From NCBI RefSeq assembly GCF_014205015.1, contig NZ_JACHMO010000001.1, positions 2,046,001 to 2,110,000 on the forward strand: DNA of 64,000 nucleotides, given 5' to 3'. The stretch is from Saccharothrix ecbatanensis. Lineage in GTDB: Bacteria > Actinomycetota > Actinomycetes > Mycobacteriales > Pseudonocardiaceae. Positions 41,731 through 53,972 of the stretch are shown piece after piece (position 1 is the stretch's first letter; the number at the start of each line of letters is the position of its first letter). The notes under the pieces were generated by a model. The model ran no database searches. It was not told the origin of the DNA and worked only from the letters and a program-made list of their open reading frames with translations. The position numbers and the translations under genes are program-made.

Positions 41731-42516
41731 TCAGGCGTTGCTCGACAACCGCTCGAACACCGCACGCGCCTCACCGCCGGGCCTGATACCCAGGTCCGCG
41801 TCCAGCACCCGCCACAGGCGCCGGTAGACGTTGATCGCGCCGACGCGGTCGCCCAGGTGGGCTAGCGCACGCATCAGCAGCACCTGCAACGACTCACGGG
41901 TGGGGTGGGCGGACGCGTGCGGCGCCAGCAGGTCGGCCGCCTCCTCCCACGCCCCCAGCGCCACCTTCGCGGTCGCCAGGTGTTCCACGGCGGCGATCCG
42001 GCGTTCCCGCCACAACGCGACCACCGCCGTGGCCGGAGCCGAGGGCACCAAGCCGGCCAGCCCGTCGACCGGCCACCGCGACAGCGCGGTGGTCAACGAC
42101 GTGACGGCACTGAGCGGATCGCCCTGGCGCAGGCAGGCCACCCCACGGCGGAGCAACCCGCCCGCGCACAGCACGTCCACGTCCTGCGCGGGCACGTCCA
42201 GCCGGTAGCCGTGACCGACGTGGGCCAGCAGGCGGGAGAGGCCGGCGTTCGCGGTGTCCAGGCAGCGACGCAGCCGTGACGCGTACAGCTGGAGGTTCTT
42301 GAGCGCGCTGCGCGGCGGTTCCCGCTCCCACAGGTAGTCCATCAAGCGTTCGGTGGACACGGCCGCACCGGCGTCCAGCGCCAGCGCGACCAGCAACGTC
42401 CGCGTCTTCACCCCGCCGGGCACCACGTCGACCGCCCTCGGCCCGCTCACCGAGGGCCCTCCTAACAGCCGGATGTCGACTTCCAGCCGCACCTGCGACG
42501 TCGAACGGATCGACAC
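41731..42516 (-). CDS. SARP-family regulator (AfsR/DnrI type)
   Basis: A 261-aa regulator. GTG 42516 is preferred because GGGGAG lies 6 nt upstream; the frame opens at 42531. Residues ~10-100 are an OmpR-like winged helix (IRLLGGPSVSGPRAVDVVPGGVKTRTLLVALALDAGAAVSTERLMDYLWEREPPRSALKNLQLYASRLRR). The rest is a bacterial transcriptional activation domain with TPR-like helices (HPTRESLQVLLMRALAHLGDRVGAINVYRRLWRVLDADLGIRPG). SARPs activate antibiotic clusters by binding 11-bp-phased direct repeats. Such a repeat pair lies at 42624-42641 in the gap to the thiopeptide precursor gene, so this is the likely pathway activator. Confidence 0.88.
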   Translation of the reverse strand: MSIRSTSQVRLEVDIRLLGGPSVSGPRAVDVVPGGVKTRTLLVALALDAGAAVSTERLMDYLWEREPPRSALKNLQLYASRLRRCLDTANAGLSRLLAHVGHGYRLDVPAQDVDVLCAGGLLRRGVACLRQGDPLSAVTSLTTALSRWPVDGLAGLVPSAPATAVVALWRERRIAAVEHLATAKVALGAWEEAADLLAPHASAHPTRESLQVLLMRALAHLGDRVGAINVYRRLWRVLDADLGIRPGGEARAVFERLSSNA

Positions 42517-42845
42517 CCCGGATCTCCCCACGTCGAACCCGATCAGTCACCGCACACGGTAGGTCGTGGCGACGGGTGTGCGGAGGGCGGCCGAATGCCG
42601 CGAACCACCGGACGGCGCAACGCATACCGGACGTATACCGGCAGGTGGGAGCGTGCGGCTCGACGCCCGCACCGTGGGGAGGCACCGGATGATCCCGCAC
42701 GATCCCGATTCGGGGAACCGCACCGCGCGCGGTGCGGTCCGGTCGCCGCGGCGGGGCCGGGGACGATCCCAGGCGGGTTGATCAGCACCACCCGACGCGG
42801 CGCGCCGACCGGTCCCGCCGCACCTCTCCAGAAGGGACGTGACCG
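42517..42845. other. Regulatory gap between SARP and thiopeptide precursor genes
   Basis: No coding frame is supported in these 329 bp. The region holds the heptamer repeats (42624-42641), a 22-bp perfect palindrome (42717-42738, centre GCGCGC) that could be an operator or a leader hairpin, and the precursor's ribosome site GAAGGGA (42831-42837). No clear -10/-35 pair is visible, consistent with activator-dependent promoters. Confidence 0.6.
42624..42641 (+). promoter_or_regulatory. SARP-type direct heptamer repeats
   Basis: Two identical heptamers ATACCGG (42624-42630 and 42635-42641) are separated by 4 bp, an 11-bp period that puts both on one helix face, as SARP activators require. They lie between the divergent SARP and precursor genes. 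The -10 they would serve cannot be assigned. Confidence 0.55.
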
Positions 42846-43007
42846 ATGGACCTGACCTTCGACGACTCGGAACTCGACCTCGGCGACCTGGCCGTCACCG
42901 CGATGCGTGACGCCGTCGCGCTGCCCGAGACCGGCGCCTCGGCGCAGGCGTGCTCGTGCAGCAGCACCTCGTGCTGTTGCTGCCAGGTGCCGCAGCTGCC
43001 GGCGTAG
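42846..43007 (+). CDS. Lactazole-type thiopeptide precursor peptide
   Basis: A 53-aa peptide (ATG 42846; GAAGGGA 8 nt upstream). The acidic leader (1-31) contains LDLGDLAVTAMRDAVALPE and ends TGA; from memory it closely resembles the lactazole precursor leader (LSELTVTSLRDTVALPENGA). The core begins at Ser32: SAQACSCSSTSCCCC (32-46), then a seven-residue Gln/Pro/Leu tail ending in PA. The S-x3-CSC pattern matches lactazole, with Ser32 and Ser42 (followed by Cys43) as the plausible pyridine-forming pair. Six Cys can give thiazoles, and Ser/Thr can give dehydro residues or azoles. The run of four Cys is the distinctive feature. All modification enzymes follow in the operon. Confidence 0.92.
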   Translation: MDLTFDDSELDLGDLAVTAMRDAVALPETGASAQACSCSSTSCCCCQVPQLPA

Positions 43008-43019
43008 TTCTGAGCCGAA

Positions 43020-43049
43020 CCGGGGGCGTTCGCGTGCGGACGCCCCCGG
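43020..43049 (+). terminator. Attenuator-like hairpin between precursor and enzyme genes
   Basis: A 10-bp perfect GC stem (43020-43029 with 43040-43049, 10-nt loop) sits 12 bp after the precursor stop and 22 bp before the first enzyme gene. It probably allows partial read-through, so that precursor mRNA exceeds enzyme mRNA, as is common in RiPP operons. Confidence 0.55.
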
Positions 43050-43071
43050 CCCACACCACGGGGAGCACCGG

Positions 43072-45486
43072 ATGGCCAGTGACCGCACCACCACCGAACT
43101 CGCGCCGTACGCGCTGGTCCGGGTGGCCGCGCTGCCGCACCCCCGACCAGTCCCCTCCGACTTCCGGCAAGGCTTGGACGCGGTGGTCGCGGCCGAGGCC
43201 CGGATCGCCGCGCTGGCGCCGGATCTCGCCGACGCCCTGCACGACAGCGCCGCCGGCCACTCGACCTTCTTCCACCACAAGGTCGTGCTGCCGCTGCGCC
43301 GCGATGTGCACAACGGCCGCGTCCCGCGTCCTACGGCGTTGGGCACGTTGCCGGAACGGGTGCCGCTGCTGGGGGAGTGGTTGGCAGCGCATGAAGAGCT
43401 GGCACGAGCGGTGGACGCGGTGCTGGCCGCGTGGCCGCACGACCTCGCCGAGGCCCGCAAATGGCTCGCGGAGGTGTGCGCGACCGACGCGCTGCGCCGC
43501 GCGAGCGTGCTGACCGGCCCGGACCTGTTGCACGGCTTGGACCGCACCGCACGGGGACGGGGTGAGCCCGACCGCAAGGCGCGCAAGGCGGAGCCGACGG
43601 TGCTGCGGTACGCGTTGCGCGCGACTTCCAAGACCAGCCCGCTGTCCTGGTACACGCACGTCGGCTGGGGCGTGTGGGGCGAAGGGCCGTGGCCTGCGGC
43701 TGAGCCGGTGTCACATCCGGCGGTGCACCGACTGCTCGTGACGAGGCTGGTCGACGCCCTGAGCCTGCGGATGCCGCACCGGCTCGCGCCCGCCCTCAGG
43801 GAACGCGAAGGCCGCCTGCTGTTCCGCCGTGACGTCCCGGTCGAGGGCGTCGGTCGCGCTGCGGTGGTCCGCGAGGAAGAGGTGAACGTCGCCGCGTCAC
43901 GCCCCTTGCGATTCCTGATCGAGGTCGTGCGCGAGGCGGGGCCGGACGGGCTGTCACTGGACCGGATCGCCGGGGCGCTGGCGGCCAAGCTGACCACTCC
44001 GGACGCGGACCGCACGGCACGCGCGTTCGTGGCGAAGACGCTCGACCTGGGCCTGCTGGTCCCGGTGTCCCCGATCCACCCCCAGGACCCGGACGCGGTC
44101 GGCTCGCTGGCCTCCTGGCTGGCGCCGACCGACGACGACACCGCCCGCAGGCTGACCACTCTCGCCACGACCACCGCCGCGTTCGCGACCGCCGACCCGC
44201 CGACCCGCGCGGCCGTCCTCGCGGAGCTCTCCGAGGGCTGGCGTGACCTGGGCGAGCGGGTCGGCGCGGACCTGACCGGCGTGACCCCGGTGGTCGAGGA
44301 CGTGCTGCTGCCCGAACCGGTGCCCGTGCCGCCGGGTGCCGCGCCCGCGTTGACCCGCCTCACCCCGCTGCTGGTGGCGTTCGACCAGCACGTGTTGCTG
44401 AGGCGGCTGATCCGGGCCAGGTTCGTGGAACGGTTCGGTGAAGGTGGTGTGGCGACGTTGGCCGACTGCTCCGCGCCGCTGTCACAGGCGTGGCAGGAGT
44501 CCATGAACGTCGATGAGGTGGACGACCCGGACATCCGTGCCGTCATCGGGATGCGTGACAAGCTGGCCGGGCAGGTCCACGACGGCGTGGTGACGGACGA
44601 CGTGCTGGCGTCCGCCGCCGACCTGCTGCCCGCGTGGGCTACCCGCCGCACCGGCTCGTACGGCTTCTTCGCCCAACCGACCCACGACGGTCGGCTGGTG
44701 GTCAACCGCGTCTACGCCGGGTTCGGCAAGTTCACCAGCCGCTTCCTCGACCTGCTGCCCGGCGCGCGCGACGCCGTGACCCATCAGGTGCGCCGCCACA
44801 CCACCAACCCAGTGCAGTTCCGCCCGGTGCAGGGCTTCAACGCCAACCTGCACCCGTTGCTCGGCGCCCGCGAGGTCGGCGAGGACGCCCGGTGGGCCGA
44901 CCTGGTCGCCGACGAGTTGGACGTGCGGCACGACCCGGTGACCGACGAGGTCCGGGTGACGCACCGAGGTGTGCCGCTCGACGTGCTGTACCTGGGTTTC
45001 CTGATCCCGCTCGCGCTGCCGGACCGACAGGTGCCGCTGTACTCAGATCTCGCCTGCGGCTGGGTGGACCTCGACCGGCTGCGCGCCGCCACGACGGACG
45101 GCGAGGTGACCACTCGGGGCCGGTTGACGTACGGGGATGTGGTGCTGGCACGTCGTTCCTGGGACTTCGCCGTGCCGCCGTCGGTCGGCGCGGAGGAACG
45201 GTCGGCGCTCGACGTGGCACGGTTGCGCGCCCGGCACGGGCTGCCCGAGCACGTCTTCGTCGGGCCGGACCGGGGGCCCGTGTCGGCCGACGCCTACCAA
45301 CGCGCGCTCACGGCGGGTAAACCGCAGTACGCCGACCTGGGCGACCCGCTGCACCTGCGCTGCCTGCCGCGTCTGCTGGCGCGGTTCCCGGACGGCGTGC
45401 GGCTGACCGAGGCGTTGCCCGTGCCCGGTGTCGGGGACAGCCGGGTGGTCGAACTGATCGCGGAAACGTACTGGAGGGCCTCGTGA
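43072..45486 (+). CDS. LanB-type glutamylating dehydratase (LazB/TbtB-like)
   Basis: An 804-aa protein from ATG 43072 (GGGGAG upstream). It matches the N-terminal (glutamylation) part of class I LanB dehydratases that is a stand-alone protein in thiopeptide clusters: ALRATSKTSPLSWYTHVGWG near 185-205 and YGFFAQPTHDGRLVVNRVYAGFGKFTSRFL (~530-560), with RPVQGFNANLHPLLGAREV. It transfers Glu from glutamyl-tRNA(Glu) to core Ser/Thr hydroxyls. The elimination step is done by a separate SpaB_C-type domain. It overlaps the next gene (GTGA). The nearby atypical tRNA-Glu (54774) is of interest because that tRNA type is its co-substrate. Confidence 0.88.
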   Translation: MASDRTTTELAPYALVRVAALPHPRPVPSDFRQGLDAVVAAEARIAALAPDLADALHDSAAGHSTFFHHKVVLPLRRDVHNGRVPRPTALGTLPERVPLLGEWLAAHEELARAVDAVLAAWPHDLAEARKWLAEVCATDALRRASVLTGPDLLHGLDRTARGRGEPDRKARKAEPTVLRYALRATSKTSPLSWYTHVGWGVWGEGPWPAAEPVSHPAVHRLLVTRLVDALSLRMPHRLAPALREREGRLLFRRDVPVEGVGRAAVVREEEVNVAASRPLRFLIEVVREAGPDGLSLDRIAGALAAKLTTPDADRTARAFVAKTLDLGLLVPVSPIHPQDPDAVGSLASWLAPTDDDTARRLTTLATTTAAFATADPPTRAAVLAELSEGWRDLGERVGADLTGVTPVVEDVLLPEPVPVPPGAAPALTRLTPLLVAFDQHVLLRRLIRARFVERFGEGGVATLADCSAPLSQAWQESMNVDEVDDPDIRAVIGMRDKLAGQVHDGVVTDDVLASAADLLPAWATRRTGSYGFFAQPTHDGRLVVNRVYAGFGKFTSRFLDLLPGARDAVTHQVRRHTTNPVQFRPVQGFNANLHPLLGAREVGEDARWADLVADELDVRHDPVTDEVRVTHRGVPLDVLYLGFLIPLALPDRQVPLYSDLACGWVDLDRLRAATTDGEVTTRGRLTYGDVVLARRSWDFAVPPSVGAEERSALDVARLRARHGLPEHVFVGPDRGPVSADAYQRALTAGKPQYADLGDPLHLRCLPRLLARFPDGVRLTEALPVPGVGDSRVVELIAETYWRAS

Positions 45487-46556
45487 CGGACGTCGTCTGC
45501 TACTACCACGACCCGGTGAAGGCGCCGCTGCTCCGCGATGCCGTCCTGCCGGCGCTCGCGGAGGCGGAACGTGCGGGCGCGACCGGGCACGTGGAGCGGC
45601 ACTGGTTGCACGGGCCGCACGTGCGGGTGCGGCTGGACGGGCCGGACCAAGCCGCTCTCGTCGCCTCGCGCATCCGTGCATACCTGGCGATCAATCCGTC
45701 CACTGTGGACGCCGATCACGACATGCTGCTCGCGCAGGCCAAGCAGAACGGGATCGCCGAGCTGGTTCCGCCGCCGTACGAGCCGATCCGCCCGGACAAC
45801 ACCGTGGTCGTCGAGCCGACCGACCTCACGACTCTGCGGCAACTTCTGGTGTCCGACGCACTGGTCGACCTGCGCACCCGGTGCCTGAGGCTCGGCGTCC
45901 CCGCGATCGCCGACGCTGTGGCCGTGGACGGCACCAGCCAGTCACGCGTGCGGCTCGCCATGATCGCGATGACGGCGCACGCGAGCAGGTTCCCGGCGGG
46001 CCTGGTCAACGGGTACCACTCGTTCCTGTCGCACCTGGAAGGCTTCCTGCTCCACAGTGACCCGGACGGCGTCCTGCGCGCCCGGTTCGACGCGGTGTGG
46101 CAGCGGAATGCCGATCAGGTGGTCGAGACGGTCCGGGGTGTCGCCGAGGGCGCGGTCACCACGCCGTGGGTGACGTGGACGGACGGCACCCGTGCGGTGA
46201 TCGAGGAGGCGTTCGACCAGGGCGAACTGCCCACCGAGTATTCGACGCAGCTCGGCGAGCGCGCGCTGGAGATGGGTGAGGACGAGGCGATCCGGCGCTG
46301 GCACCGCGACTCCACCGACCGGATCAGCGACTACCACGTCAGGTTGCGGGAGGTCGACTTCGACCACCCGGACTACCAGCGGCCCGTCACCGTCTACCGC
46401 TTCGGGACGAACATGCTCTACCAGCTGCTGTCCGTGTGCGACGTGACGCCCGTCGAGCGCTACCTCGCCGCGAGCCTGGTCGTGCGGGCGGTGCAGCGGA
46501 TCACCGGCATCGGGTGGTCGGAGCACGTCGCGCAGATGGCGAAGGTGATCCGTTGA
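45483..46556 (+). CDS. Thiopeptide pyridine synthase-like SpaB_C protein (LazC/TbtD-like)
   Basis: A 357-aa protein from GTG 45483. It opens VCYYHDPVKAPLLRDAVLPALAEAERAGATGHVERHWLHGPHVRVRLDG, the start typical of thiopeptide-type bacteriocin biosynthesis (SpaB_C) proteins, and continues with NGYHSFLSHLEGFLL and YRFGTNMLYQLLSVCDVTPVERYLAASLVVRAV. Two SpaB_C units exist in this cluster. This stand-alone one most likely performs the formal [4+2] cycloaddition of two dehydroalanines, releasing the leader and closing the macrocycle, because the other is fused to a dehydrogenase as in LazF. The assignment of which does what is inference from architecture. Confidence 0.82.
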   Translation: MTDVVCYYHDPVKAPLLRDAVLPALAEAERAGATGHVERHWLHGPHVRVRLDGPDQAALVASRIRAYLAINPSTVDADHDMLLAQAKQNGIAELVPPPYEPIRPDNTVVVEPTDLTTLRQLLVSDALVDLRTRCLRLGVPAIADAVAVDGTSQSRVRLAMIAMTAHASRFPAGLVNGYHSFLSHLEGFLLHSDPDGVLRARFDAVWQRNADQVVETVRGVAEGAVTTPWVTWTDGTRAVIEEAFDQGELPTEYSTQLGERALEMGEDEAIRRWHRDSTDRISDYHVRLREVDFDHPDYQRPVTVYRFGTNMLYQLLSVCDVTPVERYLAASLVVRAVQRITGIGWSEHVAQMAKVIR

Positions 46557-48124
46557 GCGCGGTGTTGTTGCGGCTGCGGCCGATCGTGCACGCCACGCCC
46601 ACGGCGACCGGTCTGCACGTGCGGGGGTGGCGTTCCAGCTTCACGCTCGACGGCGGCAAGGGGCTGTGGACGATCTGGGAGCGCTTGGCCGGTCCGCTGG
46701 CCGACGGCGTGCCGCCGGAGCAGTTGGCCGTGCCGGAGAACGCGTCGCCGGCCGTGGCGCGTGCGTTGGAACTGCTCATCGGCCAGCTCCACGAGCACGA
46801 CATGCTGGTGGAGGTGCCCGCCCAGTGGAGTGAAGGACAGTGGGGTGAAGCACAGTCGGGTGACGACGTGCCTGCCGACATCGCGAGCTGGCTGGAATCC
46901 GTCGCGCCGTCACCGCTTGAGGCGTGGCAGCGGCTCCGGTCGGCGATGGTCGTGGTGACTGGTGAGGGTGCCTTGGCAGCTCACGCCCACCGTGCTCTCG
47001 TCGCCGTGGGCCTGGACGTCACGCTGCGGCCCGGTGCCGGTCTACTCCTGGTCGGCGGCGCGCACGCCGTAGCCGCCGGGTGCGCCGCCGACGCCGGTTT
47101 CGTGGTCGCGCCGGGTTCGGTCGCGGACGTGCAGGCCGACGCGGTGGCGGTGGCGGAACGGTTGGCGGGCGCGTCGGGGCCACCGCCGGAGGTATTGGCC
47201 GCGCTGGTCGGATCGGCTGCGGCGCACCGGCTCGTGTGCGCGGTGGGCGGGCTTCCCGACCCGTCCACCGAGGTGGTGGACATGTGGAGCGACGTGCCGC
47301 CGACCGGGCCGCCGCACCAAGCCGTCCTCGTGGCCCGGCTCGACCCGCTGCACGCCGAGTACCACCCGTGGCTGTCTCCGGTCCGGCCACAGGAGCCGAA
47401 CGGCACGGTGCTGGACGTGTTGGGCGATCGGGAATTGGGGCCGGTGCCGACTCCGCTGCCCGGTGAGCTGCCGCAGTTGCCGGTCAAGCTGGCCGCGTCC
47501 GGTGACGTGGTCGGGTTCGGCACCACCGAGCACGCCGCCCGGCTCGACGCCCTGCTCCGCTCCGCACGTTCACTTGCACCGGACGGCGTGGTGCTCGGCG
47601 CGGATCAGGTGCACGCACTCGGTTTGGCCCTGCGCACGGCCGTTCGGCACCTCGACGGCACAACGGTCGAAGAGGACGAGTGGGCCGCCGACCCGACCGC
47701 CCGGCGTTGGTGGAAGGCCGTGACGCTCCGGTTCGCCCTGCCCGCCGTGGTCGAGGTGACCAGGCTCGGTCCGCGGGTGGTCCGTGCGGTGGTGCGGGCC
47801 GACGGTGAGGAGCTGTCCTGGGCGGTCGAAGCGTCACCGGCGGACGCCGTCGCGTTCGCCGCGATGGCCGCCGCCGGACGGGCGCAGGCCGGGGTCACCG
47901 GAACAGTCGTGCTGTGCGGTGCCGCGCCCTTCGCCGAACCCGATGGGGCCGCCGCACCGTGGACGAACCGGGACTGGTACTGGCCGTATGGCCTGCGGGA
48001 CGGCGAAGAGGCGTTCCAGGACGACCTGCGGGCGCTCGCGGCGGACGTCAAACCGGTGCACCTCGGTCCCGTGCTGGAGGCGGCGGGCCTGGTGGCGTTC
48101 GCGGTTCAGGAGGACGGCCGGTGA
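46553..48124 (+). CDS. ThiF-like cyclodehydratase partner protein (LazD/TbtF-like)
   Basis: A 523-aa protein. TTG 46553 overlaps the upstream stop (TTGA); GTG 46562 is an alternative. Residues ~1-95 form a small winged-helix-like peptide-binding (RRE) domain, where precursor leaders dock. The centre has a degenerate E1/ThiF Rossmann region (SAMVVVTGEGALAAHAHRALVAVGLDVTLRPGAGLLLVGG). The C-terminal ~200 residues are another beta-rich domain. It should present the leader peptide to the YcaO enzyme encoded next. The gene overlaps that one by GTGA. Sequence similarity to Ocin-ThiF-like proteins is judged by pattern only. Confidence 0.78.
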   Translation: MSAVLLRLRPIVHATPTATGLHVRGWRSSFTLDGGKGLWTIWERLAGPLADGVPPEQLAVPENASPAVARALELLIGQLHEHDMLVEVPAQWSEGQWGEAQSGDDVPADIASWLESVAPSPLEAWQRLRSAMVVVTGEGALAAHAHRALVAVGLDVTLRPGAGLLLVGGAHAVAAGCAADAGFVVAPGSVADVQADAVAVAERLAGASGPPPEVLAALVGSAAAHRLVCAVGGLPDPSTEVVDMWSDVPPTGPPHQAVLVARLDPLHAEYHPWLSPVRPQEPNGTVLDVLGDRELGPVPTPLPGELPQLPVKLAASGDVVGFGTTEHAARLDALLRSARSLAPDGVVLGADQVHALGLALRTAVRHLDGTTVEEDEWAADPTARRWWKAVTLRFALPAVVEVTRLGPRVVRAVVRADGEELSWAVEASPADAVAFAAMAAAGRAQAGVTGTVVLCGAAPFAEPDGAAAPWTNRDWYWPYGLRDGEEAFQDDLRALAADVKPVHLGPVLEAAGLVAFAVQEDGR

Positions 48125-49779
48125 CCGTGCGGGTGGTGGAGCTGGCCGACTACACGATCGGTGACCTGGACGGCATCGGTCCCGTGCTGCCGGTGCGGTT
48201 CGACGGCGCTCTGGTGCTGATCGGGCCGGTGTCGGACGGGGTGTGCGTGGGCTGTGCCGAGGACGCACGGCTGGCCACGCTCGGCTCGTCCGTGCCGCGT
48301 GGGGATCGGCGGATGCGGTTGGGAGGCTTGGCGTCTCCGGCGTTGCGACCGTTGGTGACAGTGCTGGTCGACCGGGTGCTGGCCGATCCCGCTGCCTACC
48401 GCGACAAGGTGGTCGCGTTGCGGACCGACCTGGCGACGGTGGGGGAGCACCGGGTGCGCCCCCGGCCCGGTGGCTGCCCGACGTGCGGCCCTCTGCCCGA
48501 GGATTCACCGGAGACGGTGGTCCGCGAGCCCGTCCCGGTGGTTCCCGGCACGTTGCGCGGGCCGAACCCGCTCACCGAGGGCGACGCCCTGCGGCGTGAG
48601 CTGTTCGACCTCAGGCACGGTCCGGTCGGCGGGATGTACCGCATCGGTGACCTGACCGTGGCGGCGGTGAGTGCCGAGCTGGGTGGTGGGCAGGCCGGGT
48701 TCGGCCGCACCGCCGACTACGCCGAGGCCGAACGGGTCGCGCTGTACGAAGCCGTGGAACGGCACGCGGGCATGCGTCCCCGGCGCGTCACCACGGTCGT
48801 GGAGGCGTCGTACGCGGAGCTGGGCGATCGTGCGCTCGATCCGACGCGGCTCGGCCTGCCCGACCACGAGTCGCCGCACGTCGTGCCGTACCACCCGGAC
48901 GTGCGGACCCGGTGGGTGCACGGTTGGTCGTACACCCACGGGCGGCCGGTCCTGGTGCCCGAGCACGTGGCGTACTGGGGGTACGGTGAAAGGCGGTTCG
49001 TGGACGAGACGTCCAACGGGTGCGGCGCCGGCAACAGCCTCACCGAAGCCGTGCTGTACGGGCTGTTCGAGGTCGCCGAACGGGACGCGTTCCTGATGGC
49101 CTGGTACCAGCGGACGCCGTTGCGGAGCCTGCGCGTGCGCGACGACGTCACCGCGCACATCGCGGACCGGTTGGCACAGCTCGGCTATCGGCTGGAGCTC
49201 TACGACGCCACCAACGACCTGGGTGTGCCGTCGGTGCTGTCGCTCGCGCGTTCTCCCCGGCAGCCGCACGCCTTCTTCGCCGCCGGTGCCGGGCTGGACC
49301 CGGACGCGGCGATGCGGTCGGCGGCGGCCGAGGTGGTGATGGACGTGGAGGCGGGCGCCAAGCGCTACCGCGTCGAGCCCGGTGACTACGACACGGACCG
49401 GCTGCGGCGACTGCTCCGCGACCCCCGGCTGATCCGGGGCATGGAGGACCACGTGAACGTCAACGGCCTGACGGAGGCCGTCGAGCGGCACGACTTCCTG
49501 GTGCCGGGACCTGAGGTGGATCTGCGGGTGCCGGACGTGCCGCGCGACGACCTGGACGCGTTGCTGGAGCACTACGTGCGCAAGTGGGCGGGGTTGGGGT
49601 TGGAGGTGATCGCGGTCGACCAGAGCGACCCGGTGGTGCGTGACCGGCTCGGCCTGCACTCGGCGAAGGTGATCGTGCCCGGCACCGTGCCGATGACGTT
49701 CGGTGAGCTGAACCGGCGCACGCAAGGCATACCGCGGCTGCGCCTCGCTGGTCCTCCGCTGCCCCATCCGTTCCCGTGA
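48121..49779 (+). CDS. YcaO azoline cyclodehydratase (LazE/TbtG-like)
   Basis: A 552-aa protein from GTG 48121. Two CxxC pairs in the N-terminal part (VCVGC and GGCPTCGP) suggest a structural zinc. The YcaO domain (~165-552) shows the ATP-binding Glu/Arg signatures ERVALYEAVERHAG and SLTEAVLYGLFEVAERDAFLMAWY, the TSNGCGAGNS loop, and the C-terminal PxPxP-type end (PPLPHPFP) of azoline-forming YcaO enzymes. With the ThiF-like partner it converts core Cys (and perhaps Ser/Thr) to thiazolines using ATP. The six core cysteines are its expected sites. Confidence 0.9.
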   Translation: MTVRVVELADYTIGDLDGIGPVLPVRFDGALVLIGPVSDGVCVGCAEDARLATLGSSVPRGDRRMRLGGLASPALRPLVTVLVDRVLADPAAYRDKVVALRTDLATVGEHRVRPRPGGCPTCGPLPEDSPETVVREPVPVVPGTLRGPNPLTEGDALRRELFDLRHGPVGGMYRIGDLTVAAVSAELGGGQAGFGRTADYAEAERVALYEAVERHAGMRPRRVTTVVEASYAELGDRALDPTRLGLPDHESPHVVPYHPDVRTRWVHGWSYTHGRPVLVPEHVAYWGYGERRFVDETSNGCGAGNSLTEAVLYGLFEVAERDAFLMAWYQRTPLRSLRVRDDVTAHIADRLAQLGYRLELYDATNDLGVPSVLSLARSPRQPHAFFAAGAGLDPDAAMRSAAAEVVMDVEAGAKRYRVEPGDYDTDRLRRLLRDPRLIRGMEDHVNVNGLTEAVERHDFLVPGPEVDLRVPDVPRDDLDALLEHYVRKWAGLGLEVIAVDQSDPVVRDRLGLHSAKVIVPGTVPMTFGELNRRTQGIPRLRLAGPPLPHPFP

Positions 49780-50885
49780 AGGCCGTTCCCGTGAACGCCG
49801 AGGCCTTGCGCGCCGCCTACACCCACGGGCCGGGGCGGGTGGTCGAGCCGGGGACGTCGCCGCGCACGGCCGCTCCGGAGGGGCCACGCGTGCCGCTGAC
49901 CTCGTTGCGCGGACGCTTCGGAGCGGCGTTGGCCCGGCTGCTGACCGACGTGGCGACCCCGCTGCGGTGGGAGCCGTGGAACCAGTACAACGACCACCGC
50001 GCGTACCCGTCGGCACGGGCCGCGTCCACCGTCGACCTGGTGGTGGAGGGCCGGTGGCTGCTTGATCCGGTGCGCCGGGTGCTGGTCGGCGAAGGAACTC
50101 CGGTGATCGACGGGCCGGTGCGGGTCGAGCTGGTCCGCCGCCGCGATCGTCTCTCGCCCGGATACCGCGAGTTCGGTGACGTGCTCACGGAGTTGGAAGT
50201 CGGGCACGTCGCGGGGGCGTTGGTCGAGCACGCGGCACGGCTCGGTCTCGACGCGCGGGTGTCCGGGCTGACCGTCACGGTGGCGTTCGAAGGCGTTGCC
50301 GACCCGGCTCCTGTTCCGCTTCGAAGTTCGGGAGTGGGTCCGCGTGGTGTCGCGGCCGATCCCCGGCCATTGCCTTTGAGCGTGCTGCAAGCGGTGGTCG
50401 AGGCTCTTGATCACCCGCCCGCCGGGTCGCCTGTGCGGGACGACCTGCGGCACCGGCTCGGCGTGCGGAACGTCGTGGGTGTCGACGATGGCTGGTACGC
50501 CGTGGACGGTGGGCTGCGGCTGGTGTCACCGGGGCCGGCCGTGGCGGGGTTGCAGCCGGTGTTCGGCCATCCGCCCGGGACGATCCACGTCGCCTCGATG
50601 AACCTCGCGCTGGTGACGACCGGTGACCCGGCCGCCGCCGTGGCGTCCGACGGTCCGGACGGCTACCGGGCGCTGCTGCGTGCGGCCGGTGCGACCGCGC
50701 AGCACGTGTGCACGGCGACGGCGCGCTCCGGGGCGTTCTGCCGGCCCGCGCGCAGCACCGACGACGGACCGCTGGAGGCCATGGTCGGCGCGCCCGCGTC
50801 GCACACGCTGCTCTACCTGCTGCTCGTCGGCCGCCCGCGTGGCACGGGCTTCACCTACGACCTCACCCCACTGGAGACGTCATGA
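49776..50885 (+). CDS. Extra nitroreductase-like protein in the thiopeptide operon
   Basis: A 369-aa protein from GTG 49776 (GTGA overlap; GTG 49791 is an alternative). Its first half has the SagB-type opening HRAYPSARAASTVDLVVEGRWLLDPVRRVLVG, and the C-terminal part has ATAQHVCTATARSGAFCRPARSTDDGPLEAMVG and THTLLYLLLVGRP-like strands, where complete SagB enzymes bind FMN. The usual Arg/Ser FMN motif at the N-terminus is not evident, so it may be a non-catalytic partner or a diverged second dehydrogenase. The six-gene lactazole cluster, as I recall it, has no counterpart. The four-Cys run might need it. Confidence 0.6.
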   Translation: MKAVPVNAEALRAAYTHGPGRVVEPGTSPRTAAPEGPRVPLTSLRGRFGAALARLLTDVATPLRWEPWNQYNDHRAYPSARAASTVDLVVEGRWLLDPVRRVLVGEGTPVIDGPVRVELVRRRDRLSPGYREFGDVLTELEVGHVAGALVEHAARLGLDARVSGLTVTVAFEGVADPAPVPLRSSGVGPRGVAADPRPLPLSVLQAVVEALDHPPAGSPVRDDLRHRLGVRNVVGVDDGWYAVDGGLRLVSPGPAVAGLQPVFGHPPGTIHVASMNLALVTTGDPAAAVASDGPDGYRALLRAAGATAQHVCTATARSGAFCRPARSTDDGPLEAMVGAPASHTLLYLLLVGRPRGTGFTYDLTPLETS

Positions 50886-52411
50886 CGTGGACCAGCCTGC
50901 ACGTGCGGCTGTCGTGGGCGGTCGAGGACGTCGACGCGTTCATCGCCGACGTCCTCGCACCCGAGTTGGACGGGCACCGTGCGGCGGGACGTGTCGCCGA
51001 CTGGTTCTACGTGCGGTACTGGGAGGCCGGCCCGCACCTGCGCGTCCGGGTGCGTGACGCGGCCGTGGACCTGGCCGATCGGTTGCGTTCGCTCGTCGCG
51101 GGGGCTGATCGCCCGGTGGTGGTCTCGTCTCCCGACTGGCTGCCGCACGGTGACGTCCGCGAGATGCCGTACGTGCCCGAGGTGGAGCGGTACGGCGGGC
51201 CGGAGTCGCTACCGGTCGCCGAGGCGGTGTTCTGCCGCAGCACCGAGGTGGCGGTGGCCGTGCTGCGGTCGGCGGGGTCGAAGTTCACCGCAGCCGTGGA
51301 GCTGGTGATGGCCACGACGATCGCGGTGAAGCTGGACCGGGTGGAGGCGGCGTCGTGGCTGCGTTCCCTGGCGACGGGGTGGCGGCAGGCGCGCGAGCCC
51401 GTCGCCCCGCCGGGGATGCGTTCCCACATCGCCGCGCGGACGTTGCACGAGGCACGTGCGACCCACCTCGCCGCCCGGTGGGACCGGCTCGAATCACGCG
51501 CGACGGGTGCGGTGGGGTACTGGGCGGACCAGGTGCGGGCGGTGGACCTGCCGCGTTACGTCTGGGCCTCGCAGCTGCACATGCTGTTCAACCGCCTGGG
51601 TCTCGGCCCGGAGGAGGAGCGCACCGTCTGCCGGCTGGTGGCGATGACGGCCGAAGCTCCGGACGGGCCGACGCCGTTCCACGAAGACGGCGCGACGGCA
51701 GCCGACCGGCGTTACCTGGCGGCCAGCAAGTTCCACTCGGGCGTGCCGGACCAGGGTCCGCTCAAGGTAGAGGTCACGTCGCCGACTCTGCCGTGGTGGC
51801 CGGACGTGCCGCTGCCCGACGCCGCGCCCGTGTCCGGTGCCCTGGCCGACGCGTTGCTGGCCCGGCACACCGCCCGTGGCCCGGAGCTGTCCGGCCCGCT
51901 GGACGCCAGGCAGTTGGCGACCCTGCTGTGGACGGCGCAGGGTGCTCTCCCGGACGGGCGCAGGCCGTACCCGAGCGCGGGAGCACGGCACAGCGCGAGG
52001 CTGCGGGTGGTGGCGTTGCGGGTGACCGGGCTGGAGCCGGGCGTGTACGAGGTGGACGAGGTGCGGCGGACGCTGGTCCACGTCGCGCCCGCGCCGCCGG
52101 TGGACGACGTGCGCGCGTCCTCGATGTGGTTCGGCGAGGGGGAGGGAAGGGTGGACCCGGCCACGACGCCCGCCGTGCTTGCCCTGTACACGCGGATTGG
52201 TGAGTTACGGGCGGCGTACGGCCTGCGGGCGCTGCGGTTGGCGTTCACGGAGGCCGGGCACCTGGCGCAGAACCTCGCGCTGGTCGCCGCGTCGTCGGGG
52301 CTGGCGCTGGGCATGATCGGCGGCTTCTACGACGACATGGCGCACGACGTGCTGTGCCTGGACGGCGTGGACGACACCCTGGTCTACCTGATGCCGCTGG
52401 CGTCCGTCTGA
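50882..52411 (+). CDS. Fused SpaB_C eliminase and azoline dehydrogenase (LazF-like)
   Basis: A 509-aa bifunctional protein from ATG 50882 (ATGA overlap). Residues ~1-290 are a second SpaB_C domain (WTSLHVRLSWAVEDVDAFIADVLAPEL...WFYVRYWEAGPHLRVRVRD; SQLHMLFNRLGLGPEEERTVC), expected to remove glutamate from glutamylated Ser/Thr to leave dehydro residues. Residues ~310-509 are a SagB-type nitroreductase fold (RPYPSAGARHSARLRVVALRVTGLEPGVYEVD...AGHLAQNLALVAASSGLALGMIGGFYDD), which oxidises thiazolines to thiazoles with FMN. This same fusion is the hallmark of the lactazole group. It is the last gene of the operon. Confidence 0.85.
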   Translation: MTWTSLHVRLSWAVEDVDAFIADVLAPELDGHRAAGRVADWFYVRYWEAGPHLRVRVRDAAVDLADRLRSLVAGADRPVVVSSPDWLPHGDVREMPYVPEVERYGGPESLPVAEAVFCRSTEVAVAVLRSAGSKFTAAVELVMATTIAVKLDRVEAASWLRSLATGWRQAREPVAPPGMRSHIAARTLHEARATHLAARWDRLESRATGAVGYWADQVRAVDLPRYVWASQLHMLFNRLGLGPEEERTVCRLVAMTAEAPDGPTPFHEDGATAADRRYLAASKFHSGVPDQGPLKVEVTSPTLPWWPDVPLPDAAPVSGALADALLARHTARGPELSGPLDARQLATLLWTAQGALPDGRRPYPSAGARHSARLRVVALRVTGLEPGVYEVDEVRRTLVHVAPAPPVDDVRASSMWFGEGEGRVDPATTPAVLALYTRIGELRAAYGLRALRLAFTEAGHLAQNLALVAASSGLALGMIGGFYDDMAHDVLCLDGVDDTLVYLMPLASV

Positions 52412-52745: not shown

Positions 52746-53972
52746 TTACACCGATTGGGTGACTCGGTGACGGCGGTTCCGAACGTGGGCGATCACCTTC
52801 ACCATGAGCGCGGACACCGCGACGCAGTAGACGCCCAGCACGACGACCTGGTGCGGGTAGCCGACGCCGCCGTCGATCAGCAGGCCGCTCAGCCCTGGAC
52901 CGGCGGCCGAGGCGAAGACCAGGATCGCCACCACCACCGAACGGATCGCGCCAAGGTGGTCCACGCCGTAGATCTCCGGCCACGTCGCGCCGAACAGGCT
53001 GAGTGACAGGCCGTTCGTCACGCCGTAGAGGGCCATGAAGGCGAACAGGCCCCACTGGGCCTCCGTCAGGCCCAGCACCAGCAGCCCGCCGCCGAGCGGC
53101 AGCAGGAAGAGCGGCACCAGGCGCAACGCGGTCAGCCGGTCGACCAGGTGACCGCCGATCACGTTGAACACCACCGTCGACACCGCGTACACCGTGAACG
53201 CCGTCGCCGTCACCTGGAGCGGCCACCCGCGCAGGTCGGCCAGGTGCACCTGGTTGAAGAACACCGTGTTGCCGATCAGCGCGGGCGCGCCCATGGCCAG
53301 GCAGACGAGGTAGAAGTACGGATCGCGCAACGCCTGCCGTCTGGTCCAGCTCGGCGTGGACACGCGAGCGCTGTGCACGGCGTCCGGCGCCGGCATGCGT
53401 TCACGGCGGAACAGCGCGGCCACCGCGAAGGCCGCGACCAGGAGGACGACCGCGCCGAGCCACCACACCTGGCGCCAGCCGGCCGCTGCCACCATGAGCA
53501 CCACCAGCAGCGGGAACAACGCCTCACCGGCGTTCAGGCCCAGGGTCGACACCGACATCGCCCGACCGCGCTCGCCGGTGAACCAGCGGCCCACCACGGT
53601 GAACGCGATGTGGGTCATCATGCCCTGCCCGAAGAAGCGCAGCAGGACCACGGCGGCGAACAGCACGATCACGTGGCCGGACGCAGCCATGGCGAACGCG
53701 CCCAGCGCGAGCATCGGCACGGCCACCAGCACGACGTGCCGCGCCGGGTACCGGTCGACCGCCGGGCCGGCTTTGGTCAGCACGAGGGCGCTCACCAGCG
53801 TCGCCGCCATGTACAGGCCGCCGAACTGCCCGTGGGACAGGCCGTGCTCGGCGCGGATGTCGTTGCCGAACAGGGAGATGAAGAACGTCTGGCCGAAGCA
53901 GGACAACAGGAACAGCAGGAAACCCCCGGACAGCCAGCGTTTGTCGCGGCGGAGGAAGTCGACGGTGCTCAT
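52746..53972 (-). CDS. MFS transporter
   Basis: A 408-aa transporter with 12 predicted helices and the MFS layout: loop 2-3 region KAGPAVDRYPARHVVL and GRWFTGERGRAMSVSTLGLNAGEAL, a central loop RRERMPAPDAVHSARVSTPSWTRRQALRD, and HLVDRLTALRLVPLFLLP in the second half. It resembles monocarboxylate/oxalate-formate-type or small-molecule exporters. Being the only transporter beside the thiopeptide operon, it is a candidate for product export, but it is on the other strand, so the link is uncertain. Its start overlaps the stop of the truncated flavoenzyme gene (ATGA). Confidence 0.85.
   Translation of the reverse strand: MSTVDFLRRDKRWLSGGFLLFLLSCFGQTFFISLFGNDIRAEHGLSHGQFGGLYMAATLVSALVLTKAGPAVDRYPARHVVLVAVPMLALGAFAMAASGHVIVLFAAVVLLRFFGQGMMTHIAFTVVGRWFTGERGRAMSVSTLGLNAGEALFPLLVVLMVAAAGWRQVWWLGAVVLLVAAFAVAALFRRERMPAPDAVHSARVSTPSWTRRQALRDPYFYLVCLAMGAPALIGNTVFFNQVHLADLRGWPLQVTATAFTVYAVSTVVFNVIGGHLVDRLTALRLVPLFLLPLGGGLLVLGLTEAQWGLFAFMALYGVTNGLSLSLFGATWPEIYGVDHLGAIRSVVVAILVFASAAGPGLSGLLIDGGVGYPHQVVVLGVYCVAVSALMVKVIAHVRNRRHRVTQSV

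Follow-up and report, generated by a model that had tools for sequence, protein, structure and literature searches.

The window considered here is a 64,000-nucleotide stretch of the Saccharothrix ecbatanensis genome, which is assembled as a single 9.69-Mb contig, and it harbors a predicted thiopeptide cluster, that is, a cluster for a pyridine-type ribosomally synthesized and post-translationally modified peptide (RiPP). A short precursor gene is followed on the same strand by six enzyme genes, together spanning 43072-52411, and from 45483 onward every enzyme gene overlaps its predecessor by 4 nucleotides (Table 1). The closest named relatives of the cluster are found in Saccharothrix and Actinosynnema. 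As will be described, its layout is a variation on that of lactazole, marked by a predicted tandem dehydrogenase, encoded by ORF5, and by a Cys-run tail in the precursor.

Table 1. Features of the cluster, in positions of the window
Feature	Length (residues)	Position	Strand	Basis of assignment or remark
Precursor gene	53	42846-43007	+	PF19409 and NF033400 above curated cut-offs; codon-position variation
Leader-coding part		42846-42938	+	Ends ...VALPETGA; boundary placed by the lactazole-like motif LPETGA followed by S
Core-coding part		42939-43004	+	SAQACSCSSTSCCCCQVPQLPA
LazB-like glutamylation domain of split LanB dehydratase	804	43072-45486	+	PF04738, 79.6 bits; Lant_dehydr_N
LazC-like pyridine synthase (predicted)	357	45483-46556	+	Lant_dehydr_C; NF045556; PbtD/TbtD structures by sequence
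LazD-like E1-like/RRE (ocin-ThiF type) partner (predicted)	523	46553-48124	+	Model-based structural matches
LazE-like YcaO cyclodehydratase	552	48121-49779	+	PF02624, 259.8 bits; TIGR03604 above cut-off; SagD-family match
ORF5, sixth enzyme gene, predicted tandem nitroreductase fold	369	49776-50885	+	Between LazE and LazF
LazF-like fusion of glutamate elimination and a single FMN-dependent dehydrogenase-type domain	509	50882-52411	+	PF14028, 128.6 bits; PF00881, 41.8 bits
SARP/BTAD-family regulator, divergent from precursor		41731-42531	-	PF03704, 101.2 bits

The precursor scores 45 bits against Pfam PF19409 (Thiopep_pre; curated cut-off 23.5) and 59.2 against NCBIfam NF033400 (thiazolyl_B; curated cut-off 30), which bears out the original prediction of a 53-residue precursor ahead of thiopeptide enzymes. 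Its supposed escape from routine gene calling holds in part, two of its three database relatives already carrying the NCBI name 'thiazolylpeptide-type bacteriocin'. The reading frame is under strong purifying selection across the genus: among 12 distinct orthologous stretches of 138 nucleotides, the variable sites fall 3/1/25 at codon positions 1/2/3, and 26 variable codons yield merely four changed residues. The expected conservation of the frame in related genomes is thereby confirmed, and so is the lactazole-like character of the leader, a similarity on which the prediction had been staked; the leader matches, at an E value of 3e-11 for one genome, two clusters with the core SWGSCSCQGSSSC in one other genus, one of them in Amycolatopsis xylanica (L081), a member of the same family. 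In a family-wide search, precursor matches at E <= 0.01 were found in 36 of 390 genomes, although the weakest of these are probably due to chance. Ser32 and Ser42 of the precursor are Ser1 and Ser11 of the core, and the predicted S-x3-CSC start, four Cys and 11-residue spacing are all in place, with QVPQLPA beyond the CCCC run. What had been called an unusual core is, however, a family trait: the four-Cys end is shared by Saccharothrix/Actinosynnema, Kibdelosporangium and Actinocrispum, among others. Thiopeptides with polythiazoles have also been described before.

A YcaO cyclodehydratase, a split LanB dehydratase and a dehydrogenase are all encoded downstream. The LazB-like protein is 84-94% identical to its counterparts in eight close Saccharothrix stretches and 38% identical to that of a Streptomyces locus (L111). 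The LazC-like protein is a predicted pyridine synthase, matching NF045556 (TbtD_PbtD_pyrid) at E 5.8e-45 with 154 bits, which is below the model cut-off of 325, and, by sequence comparison, the structures of PbtD (E 1.7e-15) and TbtD (E 4.5e-12). For the LazD-like protein, whose TTG start was picked from the gene overlap and is uncertain, a search of sequence-family libraries gave no match. Its structural model (m72b2df86b042; predicted local distance difference test score 88.8) nonetheless resembles the E1-like enzyme MccB and peptide heterocyclases (4v1v, E 1.2e-7) and, weakly, the RiPP recognition element (RRE) of the ocin-ThiF-like protein PbtF (8t19; E 0.024, TMt 0.76), so that the ThiF-like partner of the original prediction is recovered at the level of the model but not of sequence families. 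The LanB-type glutamylation, YcaO, pyridine synthase and eliminase-dehydrogenase assignments have profile matches, that of the pyridine synthase lying below its cut-off, and the dehydrogenase domain of the LazF-like fusion displays the R-x-[ST]-x-R and YG...GGF motifs associated with flavin binding.

The lactazole A cluster (lazA-F) of Streptomyces lactacystinaeus provides the closest point of reference, and its biochemistry is taken here from PMC7210931. Five enzymes, LazB-F, act in that pathway, the azoles lie at positions 5, 7, 11 and 13, and efficient maturation requires Ser1, Ser10, Ser11, Ser12 and Cys13 (PMC7210931). The core SWGSCSCQASSSCA, carried by the Streptomyces loci L092, L109 and L111, fits these positions, and the window enzymes are 38-48% identical to those of L111 over the best aligned stretch, which for LazD covers 87 residues only. 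The window shares with lactazole the LazB-C-D-E-F order, the elimination-dehydrogenase fusion and the S-x3-CSC core start. The leaders end in ..TSMRDT.ALPEGGA in the lactazole-like Streptomyces loci and in VTAMRDAVALPETGA in the window, in each case immediately ahead of the core Ser. In the window, S-x3-CSC is followed by SST-S-CCCC, such that Ser9, Thr10, Ser11 and Cys12 replace Ser10 to Cys13 of lactazole with one residue fewer. The presumed pyridine-forming pair is thus Ser1-Ser11 as opposed to the Ser1-Ser12 of lactazole (a 32-membered ring), the residue before the second pyridine Ser is Thr10 in place of Ser11, and a CCCC run replaces the single Cys13.

The enzyme set is likewise not that of lactazole, because the window has an extra gene for a predicted tandem nitroreductase-fold protein, and therefore six enzymes in place of five, whereas the Streptomyces lactazole-like clusters are without such a gene. 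The minimal lactazole set and order originally proposed consequently survive as far as the order of the LazB-F relatives and the LazF fusion are concerned; a five-enzyme set with one dehydrogenase and a Ser1...Ser12 spacing were not found, and ORF5 stands between the YcaO protein and the fusion. Nor does a plain lactazole type agree with a combined LazB, LazC and LazE (LazB+C+E) tree, in which the window clade is separate from the Streptomyces lactazole clade. Beside the lactazole-type precursor, Streptomyces loci often contain a second one (SNG[GA]SSCSC[GS]SSSCA.., with 35-membered spacing), as seen in L079, L082, L089, L109, L111 and L112.

ORF5 is predicted to be an azoline dehydrogenase with a tandem nitroreductase fold, and both flavin mononucleotide (FMN) binding and azoline oxidation are putative. 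The fold is seen in the predicted structure. A single-sequence search of the PDB with ORF5 gave no match, while a profile search found 3eo7 (E 7.4e-6); PF00881 is present in two of 86 relatives, and the LazF dehydrogenase domain aligns to both halves of the protein. A mis-called reading frame can be rejected, since the GC content by codon position (0.81/0.55/0.85) resembles that of coding genes and there are 86 homologs. In some other thiopeptide clusters a relative of ORF5 is the only dehydrogenase observed, so two azoline dehydrogenases are probably encoded in the present one. In three of those other clusters (L139, L140 and L144) an ORF5-type tandem protein is the only dehydrogenase detected and the cores contain CC or CCCC. 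They share with ORF5 the motifs R-x-EP...NDHR-x-Y-[PA]-S-x-R, LExG and RPxR[SA], but have a separate elimination protein, whereas in the window the elimination domain and a second dehydrogenase domain form a single protein. TbtE of thiomuracin we take to be of the same stand-alone tandem type. The two-dehydrogenase architecture recurs in family f19 (L142, L157, L161 and L163), which, like the window, has the order LazB-C-D-E-tandem-LazF and adjacent Cys in its cores (there CC), but a distant leader and core (e.g. ..VPETGATSGSSSCTSTSCCGSSSCCSGGSCG) and a far branch on the LazE tree. That tree bears hand-set dehydrogenase and core labels on which none of the counts given here rests: L070 and L078 are labeled as having both dehydrogenases though no LazF adjoins ORF5, L156 is labeled as having no adjacent Cys though no core was found, and L155 and L158 each have one dehydrogenase domain detected.

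The distribution of ORF5 connects it with adjacent Cys. Scanning with LazC recovered 62 named loci. LazE is present in 54 of them, and the core could be read in 53 of the 54; with ORF5 counted as present above 100 bits, adjacent Cys occur in 17/17 loci with ORF5 and in 0/36 without it, or, counted per core, in 29/29 and 0/51, respectively. These counts omit the eight loci without LazE, among them L085 (with ORF5 and CC), and the one without a core; they treat L108, which has a 35-bit ORF5-like match, as lacking ORF5, and depend on a motif filter that missed some cores (e.g. a second CCCC precursor in L063). Several further stretches are the same contigs as named loci (L033/L052, L036/L059, L132/L078, L145/L106 and others). 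Since only the best 5 to 100 candidates per genome were scored in the genome searches, absences in them are incomplete. Within the genus of the window, ORF5 occurs in 16 of 25 genomes, and these are the genomes with a precursor match, save for one match at E 0.005 (G056).

A first LazB+C+E tree comprised 56 rows (52 of the 62 named loci, the window, L046, L047 and L049), the remainder having no adequate LazB or LazE. A careful version retained 35 of these, leaving out L046 (long branch, discordant), L086 (no core) and 19 near-duplicates. In it the ORF5 clade ranges from Catellatospora/Hamadaea, via Streptosporangiaceae, to Pseudonocardiaceae; ORF5 is found in every cluster of the clade that is readable through its position, Lentzea excepted. 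Six Lentzea rows are nested within the clade at 100/100 and are sister to Kibdelosporangium plus Actinocrispum at 88/93, yet in nine Lentzea clusters, these six included, LazE and LazF are separated by 12-18 nucleotides with no ORF5 between. The Lentzea cores, SGGASSCSCGSSSCSSC or SGAPSSCSCGSSSCSSC, end in CSSC, as against CCCC in their likely sisters (Kibdelosporangium core STVGSSCSCGSSSCCCC). ORF5 was absent from the matches in all 24 Lentzea-group genomes (best 83 of 116-156 candidates scored per genome), and a deeper look did not find it in any of ten precursor-bearing Lentzea-group genomes while finding it in six of ten genomes of other genera. A single clade of ORF5-bearers was rejected (p-AU 1.8e-46, for a group defined after inspection of the tree), the number of independent changes still being two.

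These observations lead us to assign a probability of about 0.6 to the reading that this is a thiopeptide cluster of lactazole-like lineage in which ORF5, as a predicted tandem dehydrogenase, oxidizes the contiguous thiazolines of the CCCC run. It is less likely, though it deserves consideration, that the cluster is a simple lactazole-type one with a new core, in which ORF5 is incidental and LazF alone oxidizes all azolines. The leader and five of the six enzymes are lactazole-like, the LazF flavin motifs are kept in all 16 ORF5-bearing rows aligned, and LazDEF suffices in vitro for the four azoles of lactazole (PMC7210931). However, ORF5 lies inside an overlapping operon and is kept across the readable clusters of its clade save Lentzea, 34 columns are invariant when the window protein is aligned with 60 of its 86 homologs, and the Lentzea clusters that were read have neither ORF5 nor adjacent Cys.

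A similarly improbable alternative is that ORF5 is a diverged partner of LazE/LazF that is no dehydrogenase but a scaffold or substrate clamp, holding the Cys run in register. Such a role would suit a protein that has no GGF motif and keeps R-x-S-x-R only in part while other residues are strongly conserved. Against this, RPxR[SA] replaces GGF also in L139, L140 and L144, and since these proteins are the sole dehydrogenases detected in their clusters, the absence of GGF need not mean that catalysis is lost; the notion of ORF5 as a plain pseudo-enzyme lacking the LazF flavin motifs is weakened for the same reason. The comparison is imperfect in that those three proteins retain R-x-[SA]-G-R, which ORF5 does not fully do. 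Decay or silence of the cluster, with no product made, is very improbable: a related cluster in Lentzea atacamensis is visibly truncated, but here each of the six enzyme genes has an open frame and overlaps or adjoins its neighbor, and purifying selection on the precursor is strong.

Several points weigh against assigning oxidation of the Cys run to ORF5. Searched against family profile libraries, the window protein matches no SagB/nitroreductase and no flavin-dehydrogenase profile; its second half contains just part of R-x-S-x-R (RSSG..PR), and the GGF motif of LazF is missing. Tandem dehydrogenases also occur without adjacent-Cys cores (L047, L096, L099, L108, L145, L151, L152 and L165), and tandem-type bearers are even among the 36 ORF5-less loci (L096, L099, L108 and L106, the last on the same contig as L145), so a tandem gene does not imply CC and the association holds in one direction only. 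The tree shows just two changes of ORF5 state and an independent-pairs sign test gives p 0.5, so that shared ancestry could explain the correlation. L046 was discordant in the 56-row tree, with adjacent Cys and a label of ORF5-less, although a tandem dehydrogenase of a more distant kind was later found in it, and two ORF5 relatives (P0062 and P0073), whose cores are unread, come from strains named Lentzea. Finally, some paralogous cores (e.g. SNSCSCGSCCCC) have Gly ahead of the second Ser, where lactazole requires an azole (PMC7210931), and hence the Ser pairing may not hold family-wide.

If ORF5 does act on the Cys run, maturation can be outlined by analogy with published lactazole biochemistry, the folds of ORF5 and the LazD-like protein being model predictions. 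The LazD-like partner would bind the leader, and the YcaO protein would cyclize Cys5, 7, 12, 13, 14 and 15, and perhaps Thr10. The azolines would then be oxidized by the LazF dehydrogenase domain together with ORF5, the run after Ser11 being assigned to ORF5. LazB and the LazF elimination domain would produce dehydroalanines at Ser1, at Ser11 and at some of the positions Ser6/8/9, after which LazC would fuse Ser1 and Ser11 into the pyridine and expel the leader as an amide; this order of azoles, dehydration and pyridine formation with leader release is borrowed from lactazole (PMC7210931). If each residue is counted as three ring atoms and four are subtracted from the sum (32 atoms for the 12 residues of lactazole), the Ser1-Ser11 pairing would give a 29-membered ring, and the product would have a pyridine-linked oligothiazole tail. 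For such a product with the complete tail, six thiazoles and a methyloxazole at Thr10, the calculated [M+H]+ is 1965.584, 1947.574, 1929.563 or 1911.552 after 2 to 5 dehydrations, those of both pyridine Ser among them, and 1985.610 to 1931.579 when the six thiazoles are the only azoles. Applied to a 16-residue lactazole core, this calculation yields 1400.39, in agreement with the published m/z 701.20 provided that the latter is an [M+2H]2+ ion. PMC3917276 gives 29-membered rings for EF-Tu-binding thiopeptides, although a like activity is not claimed here.

A broader division of labor can be put forward tentatively, at somewhat less than even odds. The LazF-fused domain would serve isolated azoles and the tandem nitroreductase enzyme contiguous thiazoles, with loss of ORF5 in the lactazole lineage and in Lentzea limiting the core to isolated Cys, and the natural rings of the family would range from 20 to 35 atoms, each with a tri- or tetrathiazole tail linked to the pyridine. 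Provided that Ser1 pairs with the Ser preceding the Cys run, precursors of the family are spaced for 20-, 23-, 26-, 29-, 32- and 35-membered rings with closely related enzymes. Such a role for ORF5 would help to show which dehydrogenase is responsible for which arrangement of azoles. Cyclothiazomycin, which differs in macrocycle and gene set, has a Cys-rich core that gives rise to polythiazoles, as is predicted for the window cluster. One of the titles cited in PMC3917276 names it as a polythiazole-containing peptide. The lactazole enzymes already form an in vitro platform for artificial thiopeptides, with rings of 14 to 62 atoms (PMC7210931), and, if ORF5 permits contiguous thiazoles, adding it to this platform would open the way to polythiazole tails.

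Neither the class of cluster nor the kinds of gene are new, and the precursor family already has a name in public databases. Genome-mining tools flag part of the family too, given that PMC9120177 lists lactazole-like clusters at low similarity (4-25%) for Lentzea genomes. A literature search, outside which most subscription papers fell, met no description of this family.

Upstream of the precursor, the SARP/BTAD gene is likely a pathway regulator; it is found in this position in 12 of 14 Saccharothrix/Actinosynnema stretches at 63-94% identity, two pairs of these stretches being the same contig. A major facilitator superfamily transporter at 52746-53972 was considered as a member of the cluster and rejected, as it is seen in just one of 25 compared stretches (L051).

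Related loci depart from this arrangement in several ways. Two in the genus of the window, L049 (G058) and L135 (G064), carry LazB, LazD, LazE, ORF5 and LazF, but the stretch fetched for each contains no pyridine synthase, and their precursors, ending ..GGAGAASCSCCS.. and ..VASTACSCCSS.., have no LPETGAS junction. Their products may be linear peptides with azoles and dehydroalanines, made by a pathway of thiopeptide descent, and with LazC and the LPETGAS leader-core junction missing together these loci offer a natural control for the LazC step. Saccharothrix obliqua (L038/L057) has five tandem precursors for one enzyme set, with cores spaced for rings of about 20 to 26 members; known thiopeptide rings have 26-35 (PMC7210931). 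The truncated Lentzea atacamensis cluster (L040/L110) shows an apparent deletion that begins in the middle of LazC and reaches into the end of LazF; its precursor and LazB are intact. In Microtetraspora (L070) and Streptosporangium (L078), two opposed LazC/D/E sets adjoin, with no LazF beside ORF5 in the stretch read. A lone LazC and a precursor with the core SQGSGSCGSSCCC occur in Saccharothrix sp. NRRL B-16348 (L058), where the fetched stretch contains no other enzymes and the locus is perhaps served in trans by another cluster of the same genome. Lastly, the genome of the window itself contains a second thiopeptide-like locus (L165, C1:3553000-3572500). Matches to YcaO, to a tandem dehydrogenase, to the elimination domain and to a pyridine synthase occur there, together with a candidate precursor that ends in SCNTCQCWASCVAMD.

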